DNA from: Thermotogaceae bacterium
GTDB taxonomy: Bacteria > Thermotogota > Thermotogae > Thermotogales > Thermotogaceae
DNA length: 64,000 nt
Direction of reading: 5' to 3'
NCBI GenBank assembly: GCA_027077795.1
Contig: JALWTT010000015.1
Coordinates: 62,001-126,000, forward strand
The position numbers were made by a program, and so were the translations under genes. Positions 18,720 to 24,428 of this stretch are shown piece by piece (the first letter of the stretch is position 1; the number at the start of each line of letters is the position of its first letter). The notes under the pieces were generated by a model. The model did no database searches. It had not been told where the DNA came from and saw nothing but the letters and a program-made list of their open reading frames with translations.

Positions 18720-20600
18720 TCACAGACCTTTCAACTTCTCAACAATCTTATTCTCGCTAAACCCGTGAAGCTCGTAGATGTCTTTCCAACTGCCCGATTC
18801 TGTGAAATCACTTATCGCAACGTGCTCGAACTTCTTCGGAACTATTCCAGCCTTCATCATCTTGTAGGCCAGAATTGCTCCGAGCCCAAACCAGTTGTGA
18901 TCTTCCACGACCAGTATTTTCTTTCCACCAAGCACGTCTCTCAAGTTCTCAATGTTGAGGTTCAGGGGGCATGGCACTGCTATCGCACCGGCTTTCACTT
19001 CATCGGCGGCTTTCACGGCGAATGGCACAACGGATCCCATGCTTACAACAACTCTATCGTTTTTGGGTGCTCTTATGATGTCCGCCTTCTCGCATTCCAT
19101 CACGTAGTTTTCATCGTAGAACACACTTCCATCCTCTTTTCTTATTATCGGGAGCTTTGATCTCCCGACGGCTATCAGGAAATTTCCATATCTTGAAGCC
19201 GCGTACCTGACCGCTCTGTCAGCTTGGTTTGCATCTGATGGGACTATCACTTCAGATCCAAACCAATTGGCAGCCCCAGACAAGTAGAAAAGCGCGTGAT
19301 GGGTTTTTCCATCTTCACCGACATTCGTTCCGCAGTGCGTGGCGATGATCTTTAGGTTTGTATGATTCATAGCGTTGAGTCTCTGATTGTTGAAAGTTTC
19401 ATCTACAGCGAAAACCCCGAAGTCTCCGAAGAATGTTATAACCCCTTCTGCTGACATTGCACCTGCGACGGTTGCAGCGTTCTGTTCCGCAACGCCCGCT
19501 TCCACTATCCTGCCTGGAAATTCCTCGGCGAGCCAGTTGAACCTGACGGATTCAAGAAGATCGCAGTCCACAGTGGCTATTGGAGAGTTCGGATTTCTCT
19601 TCACCAGGTCCAGTATGGCCTTACCGGCCGCCCCTCTTCCATCCATATCTTCCTCATAAACAAAAGGTTCTCCGATATCTATCCTCACCTCATACTCTTT
19701 CTTGACTCTTTCTGGCTTCTTGATCGGTAGCTTCTTCCTATTCTCTTTGAACCTTTCTGTATCATCCTCTACTCCGAGCTCTTCGAGGGCCTTTTTCAGC
19801 TCCTCATCGGATAGCGGCTTTCCGTGGTACTTGACCTGATCTTCCATGAAAGATATTCCCTTTCCTATCCTCGTGTGTGCGAGAACGACGCTTGGTTTTC
19901 CATCCTCAACGGCCTTTTTTATAGCTGAGTACAGAGATCTGAAGTCGTGTCCATCGGTCTCGTAAACTTTCCAACCGGCGGCTTCGTACTCCTCCTTTAT
20001 GTTCACCTTCATTATGTTTGAAGCTTTTCCACTTATCTGAGCGTCATTGTAATCTATGACTACTGTTAGATTACCCACGTCGTACTTGACGGCTAACCTC
20101 CTTGCTTCTGCAACTTGCCCTTTGTTCTGCTCGGCATCGGACATCATCACGAAGACATGATAATCCCTGCCGTTGTATTTCGTGGCCAGTGCCATTCCGA
20201 GACCCGCCGACAAACCCTGTCCCAGATTTCCAGTTGTCCAATCTATTCCAGGGAGACCCCTAGTTACATGACCCTCATATTTGGAAGAGACGTGTCTGAA
20301 CGATGTGAGAACTTCCTCCCTTTCCATCGCGCCAACCTGTATGAGTGCGGAATAGACCCCCGGTGATGTATGTCCGTGACTTATTACAAACCTGTCTCTA
20401 TTAGGATCATCGGGATTTTTCGGATCGAAATTTGCGAATGAGTACACCGTCAGGAATATCTCGATTGAAGACATAGAACCTCCCGGATGGCCCGATTTCG
20501 CTGTATTCGTCATTTTCAGTATATCCGCCCTTGCCAGCCTAGCCTTTTCTCTGAGATCTTTTTCGATATCTTCAGGAAGTTCTACATGTCCAAATCTCAT
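18720..20600 (-). CDS. tkt: Transketolase
   Basis: At 626 residues this is a full-length thiamine-diphosphate transketolase of the non-oxidative pentose phosphate pathway. The N-terminal half has the HGHTSPGVYSALIQVG and GNLGQGLSAGLGMA blocks, and the middle domain has the EAGVAEQNAA glutamate. The usual GDG of the cofactor motif is replaced by SDA within the stretch MMSDAEQNKGQ. The conserved Asp and Asn remain, so activity is likely. The ATG follows AAAGGAGGGGG. The gene appears monocistronic, with a -10 element upstream and a weak hairpin downstream. Confidence 0.94.
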   Translation of the reverse strand: MRFGHVELPEDIEKDLREKARLARADILKMTNTAKSGHPGGSMSSIEIFLTVYSFANFDPKNPDDPNRDRFVISHGHTSPGVYSALIQVGAMEREEVLTSFRHVSSKYEGHVTRGLPGIDWTTGNLGQGLSAGLGMALATKYNGRDYHVFVMMSDAEQNKGQVAEARRLAVKYDVGNLTVVIDYNDAQISGKASNIMKVNIKEEYEAAGWKVYETDGHDFRSLYSAIKKAVEDGKPSVVLAHTRIGKGISFMEDQVKYHGKPLSDEELKKALEELGVEDDTERFKENRKKLPIKKPERVKKEYEVRIDIGEPFVYEEDMDGRGAAGKAILDLVKRNPNSPIATVDCDLLESVRFNWLAEEFPGRIVEAGVAEQNAATVAGAMSAEGVITFFGDFGVFAVDETFNNQRLNAMNHTNLKIIATHCGTNVGEDGKTHHALFYLSGAANWFGSEVIVPSDANQADRAVRYAASRYGNFLIAVGRSKLPIIRKEDGSVFYDENYVMECEKADIIRAPKNDRVVVSMGSVVPFAVKAADEVKAGAIAVPCPLNLNIENLRDVLGGKKILVVEDHNWFGLGAILAYKMMKAGIVPKKFEHVAISDFTESGSWKDIYELHGFSENKIVEKLKGL

Positions 20601-20734: not shown

Positions 20735-20848
20735 ATGATAGCATCAGTTGGACTAACCAGAATGAACCTTGAGAGCTGCACCTTGCTAGATTGCAACCAT
20801 TTTTATAATCTTCTTCTGTCCCATCTTAAACCTCTATGGATGATTTAG
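20735..20848 (+). CDS. Possible 37-residue small ORF
   Basis: In the 225-base gap between tkt and the MutS-like gene, an ATG preceded by AGAGGGGGTGA opens a 37-codon frame on the plus strand, running 23 bases into the end of the minus-strand MutS-like gene. The product would be neutral to hydrophobic with two cysteines. No promoter was found and no family is recognised. The ribosome-binding site is the only real support, so it may be chance. Confidence 0.2.
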   Translation: MIASVGLTRMNLESCTLLDCNHFYNLLLSHLKPLWMI

Positions 20849-22325
20849 AATAGTCATCGAAGAGCTTTTTGTATATATCTATTCCAAAGCTTGTCGGCAG
20901 AGGCTTTCCTTCTTTTATCTTGAATGTTCTTTCACCACTAGGTGTTCTTTCGGCTCTTAAGAACATCACGCTCTCATCTTCAGAAAATCTTCTTGCAAGT
21001 GCATACATGTGGGTCACATAGAAAATTCTTATTTGATTCTCCAGCAGAGCTTTGACGATCTGGTATGCTATTTCAGACCCCTCTCGCTCGTTTGTGGATG
21101 ATAGGAATTCATTCAGAAGAAGGAGAGCCCCAGGTTTTATGTTGCTCACGATTTTATCCATTCTGGAGAGTTCCTCTTCAAATTTCCCCATGCGGAGGTT
21201 TTTATCCTCTTCTCTTCTGAAATGGGTGAAAACTCCTTCGTGTATTCTCGAAGAGAAATAGGATGCGGTTACAAACATACCAGCTTGCATCATAAGGACC
21301 GCTTGACCTATACTCCGAAGAAACGTTGTTTTTCCTCCCCTGTTTGCACCAGTTATTATGAAGACTTCTTTCCCGTTTGCTGAAAGATCGTTACTCACAA
21401 CACCTTTTTTCATAGCTAGGGCAAGGCTTATGTTGTAGAGATTTTTGAACTGAATCAACCCTCCATTCTCGAGTGGTGCTGGGAAGCTTATGGTGGATCC
21501 CAATTTCCTCAAGTCTTCTGCCAGATTGAGTGCCGCTACGTAGAAAGCAAGTTCTTTTCGAAGTTTTTTAAAGAAGCTCTCTATATGCTTCGCAGCGCAT
21601 GCAACCACTGTTGCAGCTCTGTGGATTCCCTTATTCTTGAGATCGTCAAGTGCCTGCGCACCCGCCTCATCCCTGGGATGAAGTTTGTACGAGTACACTT
21701 TCTCTCTGCTTAAGAGTTTCTGTAGCCAATTCTTCTCAAGAGGTTTTGAAAGGATATAATTCTCTCCTTCGTTTCCCTTTCCAAGTGATACGCTCAGCAA
21801 AACTCCCTTTGAGAATTTCAGAGTCTCCAGTTGCTTTTCAAACTCCTTTAGATAATCGTCATCTAATTCCTTCTGAATCATCTCGAAAAACCTTCGAAAT
21901 CCCCTAGACTGGAATCTCTCCTTGTTGTTGTCAGCCATTTCTCTGAGTTTTTTGAGAAATTCAAGAAGTGCTTCCAGAGTTTTCCTGGCCCCACTCAGGA
22001 TATTCGTAGGTGTCTTCCACCCGAAGATCCCCCACCATTTTTCCCTCTTATTTTCCTCAACATCAATCGTTAGCTGATAAAGGCTCCTGATAACCTCAGG
22101 ATTTCTCAAGGTGTCCTTTAAAATCTCTTGTCGGTACAGTATAGCTGTCTTGTCACTCAACGGATTGAGTAAAACTTCTTTAGATACGTCTAGGAGGTAG
22201 TGATCTCCCCTCGACATGTGGTTGAAAACGATCTGCAGACCAAGATCCTCTATGATATCATCAGCGTTAAACGGCAAGCCTTTTTCCTCGAAATCTCTGT
22301 CTGGATACATCAGAAACACTTTCAT
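20826..22325 (-). CDS. MutS-like ATPase (second of a tandem pair)
   Basis: This 499-residue protein has the core/clamp helices and the ABC-type ATPase domain of the MutS family. Walker A is GANRGGKTT (about residue 323), Walker B is ALLLLNEFLSST, and the trans-acting region is STNEREGS. The mismatch-recognition domain with its Phe-x-Glu motif is absent, and so is the Smr nuclease domain of MutS2. Near residue 45 it has LYRQEILKD, shared with its upstream neighbour. ATGA overlap with that neighbour implies co-translation under the fluoride riboswitch. Function is not known; classical mismatch repair is unlikely. Confidence 0.88.
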   Translation of the reverse strand: MKVFLMYPDRDFEEKGLPFNADDIIEDLGLQIVFNHMSRGDHYLLDVSKEVLLNPLSDKTAILYRQEILKDTLRNPEVIRSLYQLTIDVEENKREKWWGIFGWKTPTNILSGARKTLEALLEFLKKLREMADNNKERFQSRGFRRFFEMIQKELDDDYLKEFEKQLETLKFSKGVLLSVSLGKGNEGENYILSKPLEKNWLQKLLSREKVYSYKLHPRDEAGAQALDDLKNKGIHRAATVVACAAKHIESFFKKLRKELAFYVAALNLAEDLRKLGSTISFPAPLENGGLIQFKNLYNISLALAMKKGVVSNDLSANGKEVFIITGANRGGKTTFLRSIGQAVLMMQAGMFVTASYFSSRIHEGVFTHFRREEDKNLRMGKFEEELSRMDKIVSNIKPGALLLLNEFLSSTNEREGSEIAYQIVKALLENQIRIFYVTHMYALARRFSEDESVMFLRAERTPSGERTFKIKEGKPLPTSFGIDIYKKLFDDYSKSSIEV

Positions 22326-23845
22326 GATATCACCCGCTTTTTAATCTTTTCATAAGTTAAGCCATACTTTTCGGCTATTGAAATCGCAAAAGCCAAGCCA
22401 TCCGCTGGTTTTCTAACTATTTTAAAAGTCCTTATGGAAGGATCCCTTGGGTCCACCAGTGCAACCATGCTCACGACTTTCTCCCCGAAATTGGATAGTT
22501 CATCCGCAAATGTTACCCATACACCGAGGCAGTCCGTGTCCAGAATCTTCTGCAAGATTTTCTCGCTCAGGTTGATCATATCAAGCAAAGTGGCTGACGA
22601 GAACACTTCGTTCATTATTACAACACTCCTTGAAGTGGCTTCCTGAACCATCCTTTTCGCTCTTACAAGATCGTCCTCTAACTTGCTTTTTAAACTTTCA
22701 ACTTCCTCGACTCTTTCAAAATGAGTTAGTATCTTGTCCGGGATAAGTAGTTTGGCCTCGATTGCCGGCACCGGAAGCCCCAAGCTTGAAATGTAGTGTA
22801 GCTGTCCAAAAGCTCTCGCAAATGTTGTTTTCCCACCCTGGTTTGGCCCAGTTACAACGATCACCCTTTCAGGATCCCTCAGATAGAAATCGTTGAGAAC
22901 GATCTCTTGCCTCTCACCTAAACTACTCGCAAGAGCTATATCAAAGATTCCACGAGCGCGAATATCCTTGTCGGTTTCACTGACTTTAGGATAACAGAAC
23001 GGTAACCCCTCCTCTTGAAGTGGCTTGATGAATTCCAAATAAGACATGTAGAACTGAATTTCCCTTTCGAACCTAAGCACACAACCATCTAGAAACCCCT
23101 CATGCTTCTCGTGAAATTCGTCAAGCTCTTTGAATAGCTCCGGATAGAGTTTCATCACGAAATCTAGTATCTTTGCTTCTATGTGATTCATCCCATAGCT
23201 ACTTACCACCTCAAAATCGTACTCGTTGCAATCTTCCTCTTTGAATTTTGAGAAGACGTTTTCTATGTCAACTGTGTAGTCTTCTTCTCCCTCATATTTT
23301 TTTACACTGAATTTGCCGGGCTCAATTATTAAAGAATACCTTATGCTGGAAAGTCTTTTCTTCACACCCTTCGAATCTTCCACCAACATTTTGAAGCTTT
23401 CTAAGCTTGTGTATGCACTCAGATACTCCCGGATCTTTCTCAAACCTTCTGAATTTAGATCAACCTCATTCAAATTTTTTGAAAGTTTCAAGACGACGTC
23501 AGAATAGAAAAGCGCAGCTTCGAGTATCCATCCCTTTCTGTTATACTCGTAATCCATGTTTTCTGCCATCTTTAAAAGTCTGTGAACTCTTTCCATTCCC
23601 TCTGAAAAATCCTTTAGAATTCTGTAAACCCTTACGTTCTCTATATCTTTTGAAACCTCTTGTCTATACAGGACCTCACTTGCTTTCTTCAAAGGAGAGA
23701 AGAAAAAGGGTTTCAAGTTGTGCCTTTCTCTGGATGCACTGATAGTTTCGAAAACTTTATCGAGTCTGAGGTCTAGGAGACAATCTGGAACACCACTTCC
23801 TTCTTCCACCCGATCATCTGGGTAGAGAACGCTTGGGCAATGCAT
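22322..23845 (-). CDS. MutS-like ATPase (first of a tandem pair, fluoride-riboswitch controlled)
   Basis: Of 507 residues, the C-terminal 200 form the MutS ATPase domain, with Walker A GPNQGGKTT (about residue 328), Walker B SVVIMNEVFSSA and the shared LYRQEVSKD near residue 60. There is no mismatch-binding N-terminal domain and no nuclease domain. I chose ATG 23845 because AAGGAGGTG sits just upstream. A longer in-frame reading exists, but it runs through the riboswitch and terminator and is an artefact. It differs clearly in sequence from the second copy, which would suit a heterodimer. Confidence 0.9.
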   Translation of the reverse strand: MHCPSVLYPDDRVEEGSGVPDCLLDLRLDKVFETISASRERHNLKPFFFSPLKKASEVLYRQEVSKDIENVRVYRILKDFSEGMERVHRLLKMAENMDYEYNRKGWILEAALFYSDVVLKLSKNLNEVDLNSEGLRKIREYLSAYTSLESFKMLVEDSKGVKKRLSSIRYSLIIEPGKFSVKKYEGEEDYTVDIENVFSKFKEEDCNEYDFEVVSSYGMNHIEAKILDFVMKLYPELFKELDEFHEKHEGFLDGCVLRFEREIQFYMSYLEFIKPLQEEGLPFCYPKVSETDKDIRARGIFDIALASSLGERQEIVLNDFYLRDPERVIVVTGPNQGGKTTFARAFGQLHYISSLGLPVPAIEAKLLIPDKILTHFERVEEVESLKSKLEDDLVRAKRMVQEATSRSVVIMNEVFSSATLLDMINLSEKILQKILDTDCLGVWVTFADELSNFGEKVVSMVALVDPRDPSIRTFKIVRKPADGLAFAISIAEKYGLTYEKIKKRVIS

Positions 23846-23860
23846 CAGTAACACCTCCTT

Positions 23861-23896
23861 AAAAACAAAAAAGCCTCTACCCATGATGGTAGAGGC
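23861..23896 (-). terminator. Riboswitch expression-platform terminator
   Basis: On the minus strand a perfect 9-bp stem (GCCTCTACC with GGTAGAGGC, bases 23896-23888 and 23881-23873) with a six-base loop is followed by TTTTTTG then TTTTT. Its 5' arm is the same segment that forms the aptamer pseudoknot, so terminator and ligand-bound aptamer exclude each other. Fluoride should therefore permit read-through into the MutS-like genes. Confidence 0.92.
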
Positions 23897-23937
23897 CATC
23901 AGCCCTTTTCGGGCACTTTGGGCGAGCCTCATCGCCC
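23888..23937 (-). ncRNA. Fluoride riboswitch aptamer (crcB motif)
   Basis: The minus-strand RNA has stem 1 GGGCG/CGCCC (23937-23933 with 23924-23920) and a loop with ATGAGGC. Stem 2 is GCCC/GGGC (23914-23911 with 23905-23902). The conserved CTGATG is followed by GCCTCTAC, whose GCCTC pairs with GAGGC of loop 1 to make the pseudoknot. From memory, the sequence differs at only a few positions from the crystallised Thermotoga petrophila fluoride aptamer. It sits directly upstream of the two MutS-like ATPase genes and feeds an intrinsic terminator. Confidence 0.93.
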
Positions 23938-23960
23938 GTTATAGATTTCTTCTCACAGAA

Positions 23961-23969
23961 ATTTTATCA
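23961..23969 (-). promoter_or_regulatory. Extended -10 promoter for the riboswitch transcript
   Basis: Minus-strand TGATAAAAT fits an extended -10 (TGn plus TAAAAT) about 24 bases before the aptamer. No good -35 lies 17 bases upstream, as is usual for extended -10 promoters. A TATAAC adjoining the aptamer is less likely because it would start transcription inside stem 1. Confidence 0.4.
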
Positions 23970-24055: not shown

Positions 24056-24143
24056 GGAGGTGTGCCCGAACTGGCTAAGGGGCCGGTCTCGAAAACCGGT
24101 GGGCCTAGTGCCCTTGTGGGTTCGAGTCCCACCGCCTCCGCCA
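24056..24143 (+). tRNA. tRNA-Ser (anticodon CGA)
   Basis: This class II tRNA of 88 bases includes an encoded CCA. The acceptor stem GGAGGTG/CGCCTCC has one T-G pair. The anticodon stem CCGGT/ACCGG encloses CTCGAAA, giving anticodon CGA for codon UCG. A long variable arm and GTTCGAGTCCC T-loop are present. It is first of four tRNAs. Confidence 0.95.
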
Positions 24144-24166
24144 AGGTAGAAAACAGTCTTTGGATA

Positions 24167-24175
24167 TGCTATAAT
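24167..24175 (+). promoter_or_regulatory. Internal extended -10 promoter before tRNA-Lys
   Basis: TGCTATAAT is a perfect extended -10 lying 11 bases before tRNA-Lys. No -35 is evident. It could give the last three tRNAs a second promoter. Confidence 0.5.
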
Positions 24176-24186
24176 GCAGCACTGGC

Positions 24187-24262
24187 GACCCGGTAGCTCA
24201 GCAGGTAGAGCACCTGACTTTTAATCAGGGGGCCGCGGGTTCGAATCCCGCCCGGGTCACCA
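24187..24262 (+). tRNA. tRNA-Lys (anticodon TTT)
   Basis: A 76-base tRNA with encoded CCA. The acceptor stem is GACCCGG/CCGGGTC, and the anticodon stem CCTGA/TCAGG encloses CTTTTAA, giving anticodon TTT. It ends with no spacer before tRNA-Leu. Confidence 0.96.
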
Positions 24263-24350
24263 GCGAGAGTGGCGGAATTGGCAGACGCGTCGGACTTAGA
24301 ATCCGATGGGTGAATAGCCCGTGTGGGTTCGAGTCCCACCTCTCGCACCA
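24263..24350 (+). tRNA. tRNA-Leu (anticodon TAG)
   Basis: A class II tRNA of 88 bases with encoded CCA. The acceptor stem is GCGAGAG/CTCTCGC. The anticodon stem TCGGA/TCCGA encloses CTTAGAA, giving TAG for codon CUA. A long variable arm is present. It directly abuts tRNA-Lys. Confidence 0.95.
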
Positions 24351-24356
24351 AGGCAT

Positions 24357-24428
24357 GCGGGCATAGCTCAGTGGTAGAGCGCCTGCTTGCCAAGCAGGAG
24401 GTCGCGGGTTCGAATCCCGTTGCCCGCT
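24357..24428 (+). tRNA. tRNA-Gly (anticodon GCC), CCA not encoded
   Basis: The acceptor stem is GCGGGCA/TGCCCGC with discriminator T. The anticodon stem CCTGC/GCAGG encloses TTGCCAA, giving anticodon GCC. Unlike the other three, the bases after the discriminator are CCG, so the CCA end must be made by the tRNA nucleotidyltransferase. Confidence 0.95.

Follow-up and report, generated by a model that had tools for sequence, protein, structure and literature searches.

We report that a fluoride riboswitch in the genome of a Thermotogaceae bacterium precedes a two-gene operon encoding a pair of paralogous MutS-like ATPases, hereafter A and B. The locus lies in a 64,000-nucleotide stretch (GenBank assembly GCA_027077795.1, contig JALWTT010000015.1, positions 62,001 to 126,000 of the forward strand), here called the window, from whose first letter all coordinates are counted. 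At the level of sequence we consider the riboswitch, its terminator, the operon, the protein family and the association between switch and genes to be established. Our best explanation, to which we assign a probability of roughly 0.4, is an ON switch driving an operon for an asymmetric heterodimer of MutS-core subunits, which would use ATP to clamp a macromolecule that has become jammed under fluoride.

The Rfam cmscan search returned a single match to the fluoride riboswitch family RF01734 in the window, at 23883-23945 on the minus strand, covering the full length of the model (positions 1-64) and scoring 46.3 bits (E 1.1e-9) against a gathering score of 34 bits. It is also the sole fluoride riboswitch of the 1.72 Mb assembly. 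The initial annotation had described an essentially complete aptamer at this place, and P1, P3 and the pseudoknot are indeed all present; its span of 20826-23937 takes in both A and B but leaves the final bases of the aptamer match (23883-23945) outside. The elements of the switch and of the two genes are as follows.

23883..23945, minus strand: fluoride riboswitch aptamer (RF01734), identified by cmscan and by covariation across 28 relatives
23926..23930, minus strand: pseudoknot 5' arm GAGGC, within the P1 loop, pairing with 23892-23896 (100% of cells paired)
23892..23896, minus strand: pseudoknot 3' arm GCCTC, part of the terminator 5' arm
23872..23897, minus strand: intrinsic terminator hairpin GGCCTCTACC-ATCATG-GGTAGAGGCT followed by TTTTT
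23961..23966, minus strand: possible -10 element TAAAAT, weak, picked by eye and lying outside the computed promoter-like sites
23854..23860, minus strand: Shine-Dalgarno sequence AAGGAGG of gene A, read directly
22322..23845, minus strand: gene A, predicted MutS-like ATPase subunit of 507 amino acids (MutS_V 60.9 bits; AlphaFold2 model; alignments), with the motifs GPNQGGKT (Walker A) and NE (Walker B) and the H-loop His replaced by Phe
20826..22325, minus strand: gene B, predicted paralogous MutS-like ATPase subunit of 499 amino acids (MutS_V 73.8 bits; AlphaFold2 model; alignments), with the motifs GANxGGKT (Walker A) and NE (Walker B) and VTH retained

Covariation was assessed in 28 Thermotogota aptamers, that of the window and 27 others. 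Helices P1, P3 and the pseudoknot were paired in 97.5% of cells, with two-sided changes at 8 of 13 pairs, and the pseudoknot helix on its own was paired throughout, whereas sliding the partners by 1-3 columns lowered pairing to 39-55%. The pseudoknot arms read GAGGC/GCCTC in most mutS-linked versions and GGAGT/ACTCC in most others, a clean covariation. It is near certain that the riboswitch is genuine. The terminator (23897 to 23872, minus strand) is a hairpin of 10 pairs with a tail of T residues, and the pseudoknot 3' arm (23896 to 23892) falls within the 5' arm of this hairpin. Since one sequence serves both structures, fluoride should turn the genes on; the layout is that of the known transcriptional ON type, as had been proposed from the window. 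A terminator using the pseudoknot arm was found in 55 of 67 A-linked aptamers, compared with 15% when tails were shuffled. In several of the remaining A-linked switches the arm faces, as read by eye, a Shine-Dalgarno sequence of the GGAG type, an arrangement suggestive of translational control.

Gene A starts with an ATG preceded by AAGGAGG, and its end overlaps the start of gene B in an ATGA junction. The description of the products as two overlapping MutS-family ATPases devoid of recognition and nuclease domains was borne out: MutS_V (PF00488) is the only Pfam family above threshold in either protein, and we found no Pfam match in A or B to the mismatch-recognition domain I, the connector domain II, Smr or KOW. 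The two proteins are about 25% identical to each other. Their AlphaFold2 models (mean predicted local distance difference test scores of 85 for A and 87 for B) match structures of MutS, MSH2/3/6 and MutS2 in the Protein Data Bank (PDB) at 14-20% identity and over the core alone, and each is predicted to consist of long lever helices, a small β element of about 50 residues at the position of the MutS clamp, and the ATPase domain. No NCBIfam model reached its cut-off on A or B. The MutS models gave 50-65 bits against cut-offs of 480-642, the MutS2 model 45-76 bits against 400 with no Smr, and the KamC model NF052383 87 bits for B and 34 for A against 300, a model on which ordinary MutS and MutS2 proteins score about 200. 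KamC, considered as B's best NCBIfam match, was ruled out by this score and by the tree. In a tree of the ATPase region, whose support values are those of the Shimodaira-Hasegawa-like approximate likelihood ratio test only and whose long branches call for caution, A formed one clade (98), B another (100), and A and B together stood apart from MutS1, MutS2 and KamC (99), the last represented by just the 3 rows that had the motif used for trimming. A and B are a distinct two-subunit clade and not mismatch-repair MutS, and 'DNA-repair-type' is just a family label.

The active sites of the two proteins differ from the family pattern and from each other. The Walker B Asp is replaced by Asn beside the retained catalytic Glu in 51/51 A and 45/46 B sequences, and the ATPase-loop His is Phe in 51/51 A and His in 46/46 B; the Asn and Gln counts for A are partly selected, as its relatives were fetched with the patterns GPNQGGKT and NExFSS, while the invariance of B's Asn and of A's Phe is free of this selection. 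Moreover, the Asn is present in every one of the 13 A sequences that a whole-protein search recovered from Thermotogota. The Walker A Lys and the catalytic Glu are invariant in both alignments. An altered Mg site in A-B is a well supported inference, and a site that tolerates fluoride is our hypothesis. The corresponding Asp-to-Asn mutant of E. coli MutS, D693N (PDB 3k0s, which was among the MutS structures matched), has reportedly been studied for Mg coordination. Together with Mg and ADP, fluoride forms complexes that act as phosphate mimics and lock P-loop enzymes, and the occurrence of this replacement in what should be a fluoride-induced system is at least suggestive.

In a survey of 103 Thermotogota genomes an A orthologue (E < 1e-70) was present in 17, and B adjoined it in every case. 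A fluoride riboswitch was found in 16 of these 17 genomes and in 32 of the 86 genomes lacking A (Fisher p 2e-5); it stood directly upstream of A in 14 of the 17. The riboswitch directly preceding A in genome G093 (locus L072) lies at C1:1794817-1794880, and the Thermotoga petrophila riboswitch has been published at CP000702.1/1794817-1794880 (PMC13273304). The latter is the aptamer that was crystallised, and its response to fluoride has been shown in vitro, among other conditions in transcription by T. aq RNA polymerase at 65 °C (PMC11077080). The identity of the coordinates indicates that the crystallised aptamer natively controls A-B, with A as the first gene. The best-studied fluoride riboswitch structure has as its native cargo a pair of unexplained ATPases. 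As a separate observation, at L076:5437-5774 a cobalamin riboswitch divergently adjoins the fluoride riboswitch of A.

Outside the phylum, a profile of A run against GTDB genomes gave at least 572 confirmed relatives, of which the best 80 were analysed. These belong to Chloroflexota, Desulfobacterota, Firmicutes, Acidobacteria, Spirochaetes, Alphaproteobacteria and others, with two metagenome-assembled genomes labelled archaeal. B lay directly downstream of A in 77 of the 80 loci, the other three being cut by contig ends. A covariance model built in this analysis identified 134 fluoride aptamers across the 1.26 Mb of these loci, and a riboswitch less than 600 bp upstream of A in 57 of 80; compared with other open reading frames of the same loci, the odds ratio for a riboswitch upstream of A was 32 (p 2e-39). 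In a class sample around genome G108, A was present in 8 of 101 genomes, and riboswitches were found in 5/6 newly drawn A genomes versus 23/93 others (p 0.007), a comparison that leaves out two A genomes from the earlier GTDB scan; these riboswitches were mostly directly upstream. The A-B pair with the same switch recurs across many bacterial phyla and is no local oddity, which points to an unexplained and widespread bacterial fluoride response other than export.

The initial annotation had noted no crcB or CLC-F gene in the window, and this holds for the whole assembly: neither PF02537 (CrcB) nor PF00654 (CLC) had a match anywhere in its 16 contigs (96.25% complete, 1.72 Mb), although an exporter might lie on a missing piece. 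The same pattern of one riboswitch, A-B, no CrcB and no CLC was found in G090, a 99% complete relative; in both G000 and G090 the pair sits behind the sole fluoride riboswitch. The host genome also retains long MutS1- and MutS2-like genes of its own.

Among the A-B loci examined, 64 riboswitch-led genes other than A were found in the fluoride islands, including dynamin-like GTPases (7), enolase (6), NADH dehydrogenase/hydrogenase-type subunits (6), Na/H exchangers (4), CrcB (4), DUF6062 (4), glutamine synthetase (2), and further S-adenosylmethionine (SAM) synthetase and pyrophosphatase. We found no conserved third gene downstream of B in these loci; A-B travels with fluoride genes, yet without a constant third partner. 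The Dynamin_N (PF00350) genes recur in L100, L113, L114, L122, L128, L129, L134, L157 and other islands, and we know of no discussion of dynamin-like GTPases as fluoride genes. DUF6062 (PF19538), an uncharacterised family, stands directly behind fluoride riboswitches in its four cases, e.g. L128:7241-7921. Dihydroxyacid dehydratase, like glutamine synthetase and SAM synthetase, also directly follows a fluoride riboswitch in L086-L165, and these three could possibly be spare copies of Mg/phosphate or metal enzymes. A Candidatus Sulfotelmatobacter metagenome-assembled genome (G120, L157) has 21 fluoride riboswitch matches at E<=0.001, many as divergent pairs, on a few contigs. In the window itself, four tRNA genes (24056-24428, plus strand) are divergent from the riboswitch, and four tRNAs occupy the same relative place in L069. 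A small open reading frame at 20737-20847 (plus strand) comprises 36 codons, has a strong ribosome site of the GGGGGTG type and is convergent with the end of gene B, and no obvious terminator was seen between gene B and a transketolase-like gene at 18720-20600.

The following mechanism would accommodate these observations. Without fluoride the pseudoknot would fail to hold, the terminator would form and transcription would halt ahead of gene A. With Mg-fluoride bound, the pseudoknot would sequester the terminator 5' arm, and A and B would be made, coupled via the ATGA overlap. The two proteins would then pair via composite ATPase sites, as in other MutS-family dimers. An obligate asymmetric heterodimer has good support because of the constant adjacency of the genes, their paralogy and the one degenerate ATPase loop, and the two sites would be unequal since B keeps the loop His where A has Phe. 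Asn in place of the Mg-coordinating Walker B Asp should alter the handling of Mg and nucleotide, and A-B may keep cycling where Mg-fluoride-ADP would lock an ordinary P-loop ATPase. The most likely function would be that of an ATP-driven clamp gripping and releasing a macromolecule jammed during fluoride stress, a resistance arm apart from export; whether it would seize an enzyme that has been poisoned, a ribosome that has stalled, or DNA is a guess. We further entertain, as a tentative possibility, that A-B represents a new functional class, a dedicated and widespread machine for responding to fluoride, built as an asymmetric MutS-like ATPase clamp whose Mg site has been rebuilt, working amid Mg-fluoride-nucleotide complexes and freeing or protecting fluoride-poisoned macromolecules.

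Several points weigh against this explanation. No riboswitch was detected within 600 bp of A in 23 of the 80 loci (20 of these genomes hold one elsewhere according to the Rfam model), and 6 of the 57 upstream matches are weak (E 0.001-0.05). In three Thermotogota genomes (G015, L075; G041, L083; G057, L082) stop codons interrupt the frame of A, which may mean that certain lineages are losing the pair by decay. Many genomes with A also have exporters, so A-B is no simple substitute; such a role was rejected as a rule, as relatives with A-B also carry CrcB or CLC. To these are added the partial selection of A's residue counts described above and the reading of the supposed tolerance of Mg-fluoride-ADP solely from the residue change. 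Finally, the heterodimer, its ATPase activity, its target and fluoride-dependent expression in the host are all predicted. This last circumstance is what could favour a decayed or incidental riboswitch, with A-B expressed independently of fluoride, but we consider that highly improbable given a full-length aptamer with intact pseudoknot and terminator, an association that holds across phyla and an orthologous T. petrophila switch that works in vitro. A role in anti-phage defence was set aside, with no meaningful PADLOC match.

The remaining alternatives concern what A-B would act on. It may be a DNA-acting complex, a MutS-like sliding clamp that lacks a mismatch reader and would mark or protect DNA that is damaged or stalled under fluoride stress, feeding MutL/MutS2 or recombination pathways, as the resemblance to MutS and MSH2-MSH3 in sequence and fold, the retained levers and small β clamp and the positive clamp region of B (+4.8 on average) would allow. 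We regard this as unlikely, as domains I and II are missing, the clamp region of A carries no net charge on average (-7 in the window protein), no repair gene recurs in the islands and long MutS1- and MutS2-like genes are present in the genome besides A and B. Comparably doubtful in our estimation is a reactivase that pries open metalloenzymes locked by fluoride-metal-phosphate complexes (for example enolase or pyrophosphatase), the kind of activity for which KamC is named. NCBI gives the name reactivase to KamC, a stand-alone MutS-core ATPase of the same size, and in the same islands fluoride riboswitches lead genes for enolase, pyrophosphatase, glutamine synthetase and SAM synthetase; yet A and B group apart from KamC, with B far below its cut-off and below ordinary MutS and MutS2, and a physical tie of A-B to any enzyme is hypothetical. 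MutS2 engages collided ribosomes, and A-B might act likewise on ribosomes stalled by factors trapped with Mg-fluoride-GDP. In both sequence and fold, some of the best matches are to MutS2 cores, that of the B. subtilis MutS2-disome structure being one, but KOW and Smr are absent, the match is limited to the shared core and no translation gene recurs in the islands, which makes rescue of ribosomes the least probable of the three.

The bare association of the crcB motif with mutS is already known: in 2010 the motif was reported in one phrase to precede genes 'involved in DNA repair (mutS)' (PMC2864571), and the statement in the initial annotation that DNA-repair-type genes had been listed among its associations is correct. 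A literature search for fluoride riboswitches or fluoride resistance together with MutS returned, among the papers available, nothing further on the association and one unrelated paper, and a 2024 review on how microbes resist fluoride uses none of the terms 'DNA repair', 'ATPase' and 'mismatch'. What appears to be new is the identity of this 'mutS' as two genes that always go together and form a clade of their own, the breadth and tightness of their tie to the switch, the changes in their active sites, and the assignment of the structural model aptamer to A-B. If A-B indeed acts on fluoride-poisoned molecules, it would represent a resistance mechanism beyond efflux, a third arm in addition to export and to the carrying of spare copies of sensitive enzymes. 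The association opens the question to direct test, since the system consists of just two genes, transcribed together, has a clean inducer and occurs in thermophiles that can be cultured.

Compared with known systems, the window riboswitch resembles the transcriptional fluoride riboswitches of T. petrophila and B. cereus in its full aptamer, its pseudoknot and a terminator sharing the pseudoknot arm, and would control a MutS-like pair and not an exporter. A-B shares the lever, clamp and ATPase core with MutS and MSH2-MSH3-MSH6, and its two paralogous subunits recall the MSH heterodimers, but it is devoid of domains I and II, carries Asn in Walker B and Phe for the ATPase-loop His of A, and forms a separate clade. 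The compact core without domains I and II is also that of MutS2, structures of which (7vuf, 7vuk, 7qv3) rank with the best matches; A-B differs from MutS2 by the absence of the Smr nuclease and KOW, by its two different subunits and by the predicted fluoride control. KamC, the lysine 5,6-aminomutase reactivase ATPase, is likewise a stand-alone MutS-core protein of about 500 amino acids, but belongs to another branch, and the partners of A are B and fluoride riboswitches and not an aminomutase operon. Riboswitch-driven clusters with enolase, CrcB and pyrophosphatase are known from fluoride operons and islands such as the FRM operon of Enterobacter cloacae, which comprises ppaC, uspA, eno, gpmA and crcB (PMC5533749); that operon has no MutS-like pair, whereas in the window the pair stands alone behind its switch.

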